From Chthonomonas calidirosea T49 (GTDB lineage: Bacteria; Armatimonadota; Chthonomonadetes; Chthonomonadales; Chthonomonadaceae), in the NCBI RefSeq assembly GCF_000427095.1, contig NC_021487.1, forward strand, positions 2,439,325 to 2,503,324: 64,000 bases of DNA. Direction: 5' to 3'. Positions 40,246-43,490 of this stretch are shown here, in pieces. The first letter of the stretch is position 1; each line of letters starts with the position of its first letter. The notes beneath the pieces are model-generated. The model searched no databases, was not told the origin of the DNA, and worked only from the letters and a program-made list of their open reading frames with translations. The position numbers were made by a program, and so were the translations under genes.

Positions 40246-41793
40246 TCACTGCTGCGCTTGCTCGAAGCGATTCAGCTGCTGTTGAGCCACGTAGGCCACA
40301 TCTGCATCGGAGCTTTTGGCCAGCTGCTCTAGGATGTCCTTGGCGCCAGCCAAATCGGTGTTTCCGAGCGCGACGGCAGCCCATCGTTGCAGGGTGGGGT
40401 TGGCGCTCTTCAGCGCCGTTGCAAGCTGCATAAGAATTTCATGACCATAATCCGACCCTAGCAGATCACCCAGAGCGGTGGAGGCGTAGTAGGCGGTTGT
40501 GCCGCCTTTTGCCAGCAGGGAGATCAGCGTAGGGGCGGCTGCAGGGCCGATCTGCCCAAGCGCTTGTGTAGCGGCCTCAGCGACGGTTCCGCTGGGGTCG
40601 TTTAAGGCGGCCACGAGGGGCGCGATGCCACCTCGATTTCCAGGAAAACCTAGGGCTTTGGCGGCGGCGGCACGCACGTCTGCATCCTGTGTATCGGTTT
40701 GTAGCAACCGAGCAAGGCTGGGATCGGTTTCCGGATCGTGCACGGGAATGAGCGCCTGGGCAACGCCGAGGCGTATCTCTTTTTGGGGATTGGCCAGGGC
40801 CTGGATAAGTTGCTGTACAACCGCATGGTTTGGAGGGCTATCTTCTCCTGGGCGGGCTGCCACGGAGAGGGCGGAGATGGCCGCCGTTCGTAAGTTGAGG
40901 TCGTAATCGGTAAGCGTTTTGAGAAGCGTGGAGATGGCATGCGGCGTTGCGATGCGCCCTAAACCGGCGGCGGCCTGAGCGCGAGCCTCTGAATCGACCG
41001 AAGGGTCAAGTACCGCTTGGGCAAGTACCGGCTCACTGGAGGGATCGGCGATAAGCCCAATGGCGGCGATGACGGCGGTGCGCACTTGCGTAGTGGTGGC
41101 TGGGTTCTGAAGTACGGCGATAAGCTTAGGCACGGCATGTGGGTCCCCTATTTTCCCAAGCGCGTTGGCAGCGCCGATCTTTACCCCATCATCTTTATCA
41201 TCGAGGAGAGCCATCAGCGCGGGAACACTGCGATTGTTGGCCGCGGGGTCGAACGCTTTACTGCTTAGCACGTCACCTACGGGGCCGCGGGCGTCACTGC
41301 TCGATTTCAGTTCGTTCACGAGGGCCTGCACCACGTCGGGGTTTTGGCGTGGCCCTATGCCGTCCGGGTCGGTGAGGGCACGGATAACGCCCTGACGCAC
41401 GTTGATGTCGCTATCGCTTAGGCCATCCACAAGGGCTTTAATGTTATCTGCAGAGGCTGCACCGATCTGTTTCAGGGTACGTAGGGCCTGATCGCGCACG
41501 ATCTTATCCTGATCTTTCAGCATCTGTACGGCCTGTTTCACGGCGTCGGCGTTGCCGAGATCGGCAAGGGCAATGGCGGCTTGGGCGCGCATCTCCTTCG
41601 TTTCGCCGGCGATGGTGTCGGAGAACTGCTCTTCGGCGATCAGCTCCTTGGCCGCAGCGGCGCGCTGAGCCGGCGTCCCGTGTGTGAGATTGTAGAGCAG
41701 TTGATGCATGTGGTGGCTATGCAGAGCGGCTAGGCCCACAACCACGAGAACGATTCCGCCAAAAATAAGATAGTTCAGATATTTCTGTATCAC
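40246..41793 (-). CDS. Membrane-anchored HEAT-repeat protein
   Basis: 515 residues: an N-terminal transmembrane helix (LNYLIFGGIVLVVVGLAALH) and then about a dozen HEAT / PBS-lyase-type repeats of about 38 residues (AQAAIALADLGNADAVKQAV, AANALGKIGDPHAVPKLIAV, AAAGLGRIATPHAISTLLKT, AAAKALGFPGNRGGIAPLVA). HEAT arrays are scaffolds; no catalytic residues of the phycobilin lyases can be seen. Convergent with the glycosylase gene and divergent from the pilin cluster. A TAGAAT -10-like box (41851-41846) lies 53 bp upstream on the minus strand. Confidence 0.85.
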   Translation of the reverse strand: MIQKYLNYLIFGGIVLVVVGLAALHSHHMHQLLYNLTHGTPAQRAAAAKELIAEEQFSDTIAGETKEMRAQAAIALADLGNADAVKQAVQMLKDQDKIVRDQALRTLKQIGAASADNIKALVDGLSDSDINVRQGVIRALTDPDGIGPRQNPDVVQALVNELKSSSDARGPVGDVLSSKAFDPAANNRSVPALMALLDDKDDGVKIGAANALGKIGDPHAVPKLIAVLQNPATTTQVRTAVIAAIGLIADPSSEPVLAQAVLDPSVDSEARAQAAAGLGRIATPHAISTLLKTLTDYDLNLRTAAISALSVAARPGEDSPPNHAVVQQLIQALANPQKEIRLGVAQALIPVHDPETDPSLARLLQTDTQDADVRAAAAKALGFPGNRGGIAPLVAALNDPSGTVAEAATQALGQIGPAAAPTLISLLAKGGTTAYYASTALGDLLGSDYGHEILMQLATALKSANPTLQRWAAVALGNTDLAGAKDILEQLAKSSDADVAYVAQQQLNRFEQAQQ

Positions 41794-41882
41794 GTTCCCA
41801 CGCTCCCCAAGAGCAACTCTTTAAAGGATAGATGTTACTTCAAGCATTCTACCTGAATTCGCCCATTTCCTGCCCCTCTACA

Positions 41883-41903
41883 CGTTCCTCAAAAATAGGA
41901 ACG
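41883..41903. other. Inverted repeat in the HEAT/pilin divergent gap
   Basis: Perfect 7-bp arms CGTTCCT / AGGAACG with a 7-base loop, between the two divergent promoters. Could be an operator; no T-tract on the plus strand. Confidence 0.4.
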
Positions 41904-41976
41904 GAGGAGATTTGTCATTTGTTCTTGTGTTCCTTTGTGTAATATGACAGGAATCTGGCGAGAAGCGATAAAAAAG

Positions 41977-42005
41977 TTGCACTTTTGAGGTTTTCGTGTT
42001 ATAAT
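41977..42005 (+). promoter_or_regulatory. Strong sigma-70-type promoter (P1) upstream of the structured leader
   Basis: TTGCAC (41977-41982), 17-bp spacer, TATAAT (42000-42005). Near-consensus. The expected transcript would start close to 42012 and meet the terminator at 42153-42200, giving an RNA of about 190 bases. Confidence 0.75.
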
Positions 42006-42080
42006 AAAAGCATCCTTTCCTAAAGGAAGGCCAAGCAGATCTCTGTTTGGAGAAATTGAGGTAGTGGGGGAAACTGCGTG

Positions 42081-42109
42081 TGGACGGCAAAAACGTTTTC
42101 GGGTATAAT
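42081..42109 (+). promoter_or_regulatory. Second promoter (P2) at the structured leader
   Basis: TGGACG (42081-42086), 17-bp spacer, TATAAT (42104-42109), with the GGTATAAT context. The start would be near 42116, at the first base of the hairpin region. Confidence 0.6.
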
Positions 42110-42114
42110 CCAAT

Positions 42115-42211
42115 CCGTTCTACAAACGGTTTCCTTCAGCACTCTGGCGCAGCTGCCGGTTCCTTTTCCGTATACAATGGGGTAGGTTCCGGCAGTTTTT
42201 CTGTTTGTAGA
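42115..42211 (+). ncRNA. Structured leader or small RNA with alternative pairings
   Basis: CCGTT (42115-42119) pairs with AACGG (42125-42129) in a tight hairpin, but the overlapping TCTACAAAC (42119-42127) pairs perfectly with GTTTGTAGA (42203-42211), closing a long domain. The two are mutually exclusive. Inside the domain lies the terminator hairpin 42153-42195. Such a layout is that of an attenuator or riboswitch expression platform, or of a self-contained small RNA. It does not match riboswitch classes I can recognise (SAM, TPP, cobalamin, c-di-GMP-I, purine, T-box). Confidence 0.5.
42153..42200 (+). terminator. Rho-independent terminator inside the leader
   Basis: CTGCCGG (42153-42159), TT, CCTTTTCC (42162-42169), 9-base loop, GGGGTAGG (42179-42186), TT, CCGGCAG (42189-42195), then five T. 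Symmetric internal TT/TT. It ends 98 bases before the pilin-like start. Confidence 0.8.
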
Positions 42212-42298
42212 GGTTCCTCTCTACATCGGCAAAGAGAGAAAGAAGGTGTCTAAGACACACAGCAGCTTGATTCAGTGGCTTCGGAGGAAAAACAACAG

Positions 42299-43144
42299 AT
42301 GAATCGTAAAAACGCTTTCACGCTCATTGAGTTGCTTGTCGTTATCGCTATAATAGCGATACTGGCAGCAATCCTGTTCCCTGTCTTTTCCCAGGCGAGA
42401 GATAAGGCGCGGCAAACGGTAGATATATCCAATCAGAAACAGATACTGCTCGCTATCCTTGCTTACACGCAAGATTATGATGAGATGTTACCGTTGGGAC
42501 AGGTGGGCCCGGTGCACTGGGATGGAAACATTAACTCTGATGCGGAGGGTGATGGAATTAATGACGAGATAGACCCCTATATCAAAGCGGGCGTGCCTTG
42601 GGGGCCGGAGCGGAAGTCGAGTATTTGGGCCGATCCGTCCGACTCCTACCAGCGTGACGACTGCGATGGTGCCCCAGGGATAGGAGTAGGCTACGATATT
42701 AGCTATGGATTTACACGCTACGACCCTGACCAACCCCTCTTAGGTTTTGGAGTCTTCGGATATCGTTTTGAGTCGGATGGATCAGACTGGTCTTCTTTAA
42801 CGCTAGCTGGAGTTCCCAAACCGGGAAGCACCATCATTATGTTCCCCTGGTGGAATCCAAATAACTATTCCCGTTTTTACGCCACAACGCGCTACAATAT
42901 GGGAGACCTGCTTGTTTTTCCCGTCTATCCGAAAGCTTTAAGTATCGGAGATGTATGTGGAGATGGCTATAACTGGCTTTTCTCTATAGGAGGCCATAAC
43001 GGAATCTCTGATTTCGGCTTTCTCGACGGCCATGTAAAGGCGATGCCGGCTTCCCGTCTGTGGAACGTAAATCCTACAACCGGTCTGTGGAACCAGCAGC
43101 CACCTAACATGATGGCGTGGAGCGATCAATATAATACGAACTAA
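42299..43144 (+). CDS. Type IV pilin-like protein with H-X9-DG C-terminal motif
   Basis: 281 residues from the ATG at 42299 (GGAGG eleven bases upstream). The N-terminus is a prepilin signal: MNRKNAFTLIELLVVIAIIA, with Ala instead of Gly before the FTLIE cut site, Glu at +5 and the ILFPVFSQARDKAR extension common in Planctomycetes and Armatimonadota. The C-terminus has GGHNGISDFGFLDGHVK, an exact H-x9-DG. The family (DUF1559/GspG-like) is expanded in these phyla and its role is unknown; processing by a prepilin peptidase is expected. It opens a cluster with a small membrane protein, a TPR protein and a CRTAC1 protein. Confidence 0.9.
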   Translation: MNRKNAFTLIELLVVIAIIAILAAILFPVFSQARDKARQTVDISNQKQILLAILAYTQDYDEMLPLGQVGPVHWDGNINSDAEGDGINDEIDPYIKAGVPWGPERKSSIWADPSDSYQRDDCDGAPGIGVGYDISYGFTRYDPDQPLLGFGVFGYRFESDGSDWSSLTLAGVPKPGSTIIMFPWWNPNNYSRFYATTRYNMGDLLVFPVYPKALSIGDVCGDGYNWLFSIGGHNGISDFGFLDGHVKAMPASRLWNVNPTTGLWNQQPPNMMAWSDQYNTN

Positions 43145-43238: not shown

Positions 43239-43490
43239 ATGTCTACGCGGGATAGAAATCTGCTGATCTTAGCGGTAGTGCTGATCCTTGCAGCGGCAGG
43301 CTTCATGGTCTATGCCTATCGTAAGAATCAACCTCAGGTCGTTAAAAGCGTCCATGTTGACCCAAACTCTTTTCCGAAAGTACAGTGGATGAAAGAGCAT
43401 AAAGCCGGAGTAAATCCGAACGCTCCTGAATCCGGTGCAGGGGCTTTTGGAACTCCACAGGGTGGAACCATCCAGAATGCCAATCAGTAG
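43239..43490 (+). CDS. Small single-pass membrane protein, unknown
   Basis: 83 residues. A short basic head (MSTRDRN), one transmembrane helix (LLILAVVLILAAAGFMVYAY), then RKN and a polar, Pro/Gly/Asn-rich tail outside. CGGAGGA precedes the ATG. No family recognised. Its place between the pilin-like and TPR proteins suggests a role in the same envelope structure. Confidence 0.7.
   Translation: MSTRDRNLLILAVVLILAAAGFMVYAYRKNQPQVVKSVHVDPNSFPKVQWMKEHKAGVNPNAPESGAGAFGTPQGGTIQNANQ

Follow-up and report, generated by a model that had tools for sequence, protein, structure and literature searches.

The intergenic region upstream of a pilin-like gene in Chthonomonas calidirosea, a thermophilic soil bacterium of the Armatimonadota (PMC4959169), is best read as the promoter region of a pilin-like operon together with its 5′ leader, into which a strong terminator is built; read-through of this terminator would make the pilin mRNA. 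We hold this reading to be fairly probable. The terminator probably cuts most transcripts short and thereby releases a small RNA, and the element would be of a familiar kind, namely a lineage-specific premature terminator that doubles as the 3′ end of a small RNA. From the sequence, we infer the existence of transcripts from the promoters P1 and P2, read-through as the source of the pilin mRNA, and any regulation at this site.

The window, that is, the whole stretch of 64 kb analysed here (G000:C1:2439325–2503324), belongs to a single-contig genome (G000) of 3.44 Mb. In it, 505 bases separate a HEAT-repeat gene from the pilin-like gene, whose product (42299–43144) matches PF07963 (E 3.5e-9) and exceeds the cut-off of TIGR02532. 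The features on which the main argument rests are the following (window positions):

40246–41793, − strand: HEAT-repeat protein gene, divergent; no + strand gene lies 5′ of the terminator and needs it
41977–42005, + strand: promoter P1, TTGCAC-17 nt-TATAAT, with TG before it (extended −10); start site expected at ~42012
42081–42109, + strand: promoter P2, TGGACG-17 nt-TATAAT; start site expected at ~42116
42151–42202, + strand: intrinsic terminator, internal-loop stem 42151–42197, T-run to 42200–42202; z −5.7, pairing probability near 1
42284–42288, + strand: Shine-Dalgarno region (GGAGG) of the pilin-like gene, from sequence
42299–43144, + strand: gene for a pilin-like protein of 281 aa that has an N-terminal methylation motif and, close to its C-terminus, H-X9-DG

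Two sigma-70-like promoters and a strong terminator precede the start codon

An earlier note on this DNA had named two good promoters in the region, and both proved correctly placed and beyond chance. P1 is the top sigma-70-like site in 41800–42298 and was equalled by 0/200 shuffles, while P2 matches the consensus at 10 of 12 positions and was equalled in a single case among 200 shuffles of a short region; both tests were run over short regions chosen beforehand. Transcription would thus begin at P1 (~42012) or P2 (~42116). As the upstream gene is divergent, only transcripts from these two promoters can meet the terminator.

Folding was modelled at 37 °C and at 68 °C, which we take to be the growth temperature of the host. 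The strong terminator that the same note had placed at 42153–42200 is present there, with a hairpin z of −5.7 at 37 °C and −4.9 at 68 °C. Its folding energy of −25.8 kcal/mol compares with −19.1 kcal/mol for the best of 200 shuffles of 41900–42298, none of which reached −20 kcal/mol or lower. Across all ten transcript/temperature combinations modelled, the stem had a pairing probability of 0.93–1.0, and holding its 3′ arm single-stranded would cost 14–18 kcal/mol at 37 °C and 6–8 kcal/mol at 68 °C. Of the 48 pilin-like leaders of the genome, none has a stronger terminator or a lower fold z than this one. On inspection, one of two further strong terminator calls in divergent gaps (184 kb of genome) was a coding stretch that had been miscalled, the other a repeat region. 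As a separate observation, positions 2560–2880 of another locus of this genome (L237) hold intergenic, REP-like GGGCAGGCACGGGGGCCTGCCCCTAC repeats.

Most polymerases would halt at 42200–42202 and free RNAs of ~191 nt (from P1) and ~87 nt (from P2), and the fraction reading through would be the source of the pilin operon mRNA. The terminator would in this way reduce expression of the operon and supply a short RNA with a stable 3′ end. In the 100 bases 3′ of the terminator, a sigma-70-like scan stayed at chance (148/200 shuffles equal the best score); with no promoter detectable there, the pilin mRNA should come from read-through. A premature leader terminator is the economical reading because no + strand upstream gene needs a terminator and no promoter-like sequence follows it. 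The scan would miss a promoter for an extracytoplasmic-function sigma factor 3′ of the terminator, and C. calidirosea has been reported to have many such factors (PMC4959169).

Such a promoter enters the first alternative, in which P1 or P2 and the terminator delimit a stand-alone small-RNA gene and the pilin operon has a non-sigma-70 promoter of its own in 42203–42290. An orphan promoter and a terminator with no substantial ORF between them do form the layout of a small-RNA gene; moreover, the ~87-nt P2 product would combine a pyrimidine-rich single-stranded linker with a terminator bearing a T-run, and the genome encodes Hfq (99.9 bits) as well as CsrA. We nevertheless consider this alternative doubtful, given that promoter-like sequence is lacking 3′ of the terminator and that the promoters of orthologous genes lie 133–186 nt upstream, near the position of P2 here.

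The proposed hairpin switch is at chance level

The earlier note had described the leader as a set of mutually exclusive hairpins, ascribing to it the layout of an attenuator, a riboswitch or a small RNA of 85–190 bases. The two pairings concerned are:

42115–42129, + strand: short hairpin CCGTT/AACGG (CCGTTCTACAAACGG), claimed in the earlier note; the sequence is present
42119–42211, + strand: 9-bp pairing TCTACAAAC/GTTTGTAGA, 42119–42127 with 42203–42211; exact complement, enclosing the terminator

Their coordinates are right and the two do exclude each other, but neither exceeds chance expectation or competes with the terminator. The 5-bp hairpin is predicted to form at 0.7–0.9 in P2 RNA at 37 °C, at ~0.08 at 68 °C, and at 0 in P1 RNA. 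The 9-bp pairing is possible only in read-through RNA, since its 3′ arm sits downstream of the T-run and is transcribed only once polymerase has passed, and in full-length leaders it is replaced by other pairings; a perfect inverted repeat as long was present in 6/100 shuffles of 42110–42298. Once the terminator hairpin is taken out, no excess structure remains in the P2 leader (z −0.2). Two further short hairpins noted before the start codon (~42216–42237 and ~42248–42260) do not rise above chance either, the stretch 3′ of the terminator that includes them having a z of +0.5.

The terminator stem shares no base with the 5-bp hairpin or the 9-bp helix and forms at ≥0.93, so the named pairings cannot be an antiterminator, and no antiterminator sharing bases with the stem appeared in the folds predicted for the ten transcript/temperature combinations. 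As a terminator switch, the mutually exclusive hairpins are thus a chance-level feature that, in the modelled folds, could not switch it. With no antiterminator visible, control, if there is any, would depend on a bound factor, on translation or on promoter choice.

A dedicated attenuator or riboswitch, in which a ligand, a protein or a translated upstream ORF picks termination or read-through, is the second alternative. The terminator does sit within the leader, between promoter and start codon, as in an attenuator; the P1-specific RNA is over-structured (42012–42149, z −3.4, 2/200 shuffles), including a long helix described below; a chance-sized GTG upstream ORF (42080–42253) spans the terminator; and another pilin-like gene in the genome follows a real TPP riboswitch and terminator. 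However, no pairing of comparable energy rivals the terminator arm (14–18 kcal/mol at 37 °C), and covariance models recovered no conserved aptamer in relatives. Rfam 15, riboswitches, T-box and ribosomal leaders included, gave no match at gathering score in the 64-kb window, in agreement with the earlier statement that no riboswitch class was recognised, and at E up to 10 only the eukaryotic families snoU83D and U6atac matched 41900–42400, far under their cut-offs. Leader-peptide attenuation was rejected, the only candidates being two GTG ORFs, 35 and 57 aa long, that look like chance occurrences and hold no regulatory codon run. A dedicated device of this type is hence unlikely. Of the layouts proposed earlier, a leader with termination, or a short RNA, still stands; in view of the missing antiterminator and the lack of fit to any riboswitch family, we class it neither as a riboswitch nor as a classical attenuator.

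Other structure and motifs in the leader

Besides these pairings, the leader contains the following elements:

42015–42050, + strand: two small hairpins of P1 RNA (42015–42030 and 42031–42050), present in minimum-energy folds from 37 to 68 °C
42065–42138, + strand: long interrupted helix, 42065–42087 with 42115–42138, in P1 RNA only; encloses P2 and occupies 42119–42137
42130–42137, + strand: TTTCCTTC, complement of the Shine-Dalgarno region (42283–42290), predicted to pair there in P2 read-through RNA
42043–42053, + strand: CTGTTTGTAGA local motif copy, 1 mismatch
42119–42129, − strand: CTGTTTGTAGA local motif copy, 1 mismatch, inverted
42201–42211, + strand: CTGTTTGTAGA local motif copy, exact

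The long helix, overlooked in the earlier note, is stronger than the pairings named there (21 bp, duplex energy −32.7 kcal/mol); 1/1000 shuffles equalled it, a figure to be read with the helix having been picked after the fold was seen.

The CTGTTTGTAGA copies raise the possibility of a DNA operator, with the 9-bp inverted match as half-sites and the three copies binding a regulator around P2. These are indeed the only three copies with ≤1 mismatch in the 64-kb window and all fall within 170 bp of this leader, and a repeat test over any 11-mer was equalled by 2/200 shuffles. Their spacing is irregular, though, and the motif shows no enrichment across the genome (14 matches vs. 12 for the reversed pattern), 10 of the 11 copies elsewhere lying inside long open frames. 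The motif is accordingly a locally repeated sequence rather than the mark of a regulon, and an operator is very unlikely.

Another candidate mechanism would let the choice between P1 and P2 control translation, with TTTCCTTC blocking the Shine-Dalgarno region in P2 RNA and the long helix capturing TTTCCTTC in P1 RNA, which would leave the Shine-Dalgarno region accessible. At 37 °C, the predicted probability of an open Shine-Dalgarno region is 0.03 in P2 RNA vs. 0.52 in P1 RNA, as this would demand, but the contrast shrinks to 0.14 vs. 0.33 at 68 °C, 5/60 shuffles were as closed as the P2 RNA, and homologues with a comparable leader are absent among the relatives, making the mechanism very improbable. 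More broadly, the 16-nt strand 42119–42134 would have three alternative partners: the upstream arm in P1 RNA, the local hairpin in P2 RNA and the downstream arm after read-through. That promoter choice should through this strand set both short-RNA output and pilin translation, which would constitute a new kind of dual-promoter leader, seems to us very improbable.

Relatives and conservation

The leader with a premature terminator appears, on sequence comparison, confined to one lineage as far as the compared genomes reach. A DNA search (BLAST) of 40 relatives, all outside the genus, gave chance matches only. Three other strains of C. calidirosea have been sequenced, with up to 1.17% divergence (PMC4959169). 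Single-sequence covariance models of the P1 RNA (R1) and of the P2 terminator with its outer helix (R2) recovered only themselves in 41 genomes, with no match in any orthologous pilin or HEAT locus; one match in another genome (G006; 22 bits, E 0.2) was discarded as unrelated sequence in which pilin context was not seen.

Orthologues of the pilin were found in four species from three other genera of the family, with 63–72% identity over the whole length; in the genome-collection and viral scans, further candidates were distant or N-terminal matches only. The orthologous genes have a −10-like TATAAT/TACAAT box 133–186 nt upstream (109 nt in a nearer homologue), and a long leader is therefore normal for this pilin gene. 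Their leaders carry neither a terminator nor excess structure, and the window leader aligned with them not clearly above shuffles. No homologous leader in which the pairings could be compared for covariation was found among the 40 relatives, either with BLAST or with the covariance models. Selection on the leader terminator is thus not supported, as it has no homologue in these relatives and the orthologous leaders lack excess structure.

A different leader block, TCCCGAC-N-GTCTGGCACCACCCA.G.TAT ... GCTAGAAT..AGGAGGG, is kept in three species of a sister genus. It occurs as a single copy in each genome, 60–150 nt before pilin-like genes (L088, G014:C558; L089, G011:C46; L254, G001:C13). The G001 copy stands before a different pilin body, which looks as though the leader had been retained through a change of protein.

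Comparison with known systems

One of the closest schemes is that of Rli51 in the mpl 5′ leader of Listeria (PMC11394854), where, as here, a promoter and a premature terminator lie in a long 5′ leader; a 121-nt short RNA is released there and read-through makes the mRNA, which is the scheme predicted for the pilin leader. For Rli51, however, a more stable alternative antiterminator fold was predicted, whereas we found no antiterminator, and a trans RNA with trans targets has been demonstrated, whereas the pilin leader is known from its sequence. The premature 3′ ends that Term-seq located in 5′ UTRs of E. coli (PMC7815308) are of the same general kind and yield cis regulators and small RNAs, although those transcripts were observed by experiment and ours are predicted. 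A terminator in a pilin-gene leader also occurs in the c-di-GMP-II riboswitch Cdi-2-4 of Clostridioides difficile pilA1 (PMC6366702), which, unlike the leader studied here, has a conserved ligand-binding aptamer; the latter matches no Rfam riboswitch.

Within the same genome and pilin-like gene family, the TPP riboswitch leader at G000:C1:434117–434217 likewise contains a terminator. Unlike the leader of the gene at 42299, it has an aptamer that is recognised (79.1 bits), and the operon downstream of it is thiamine-related.

That second locus (L062, − strand) merits description in its own right. An RF00059 TPP riboswitch is followed by a terminator and then by a pilin-like gene, and the downstream ORFs, named by reading the sequence, resemble thiamine pyrophosphokinase and a sodium-solute symporter. 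It is odd for a pilin-like gene to head an operon under thiamine control.

If the P1 and P2 transcripts exist, the leader of the gene at 42299 would provide a candidate small RNA and an attenuated leader in the Armatimonadota, a phylum for which a full-text literature search on small RNAs and riboswitches gave no paper, and it would connect a large family of pilin-like genes with control at the RNA level. At present it amounts to a single, ordinary leader terminator that is not conserved, and its interest is local.

Genomic surroundings of the pilin-like gene

The pilin N-terminus has 54 matches in the 3.44-Mb genome, spread around the chromosome. In the window, genes for a TPR protein and an ASPIC/UnbV FG-GAP protein lie 3′ of the pilin-like gene. 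Reading by eye also suggests a small ORF there (43239–43490) with a single transmembrane-like segment, and similar small ORFs apparently follow pilin relatives at five further loci (L087, L090, L091, L092 and L058; likewise by eye).
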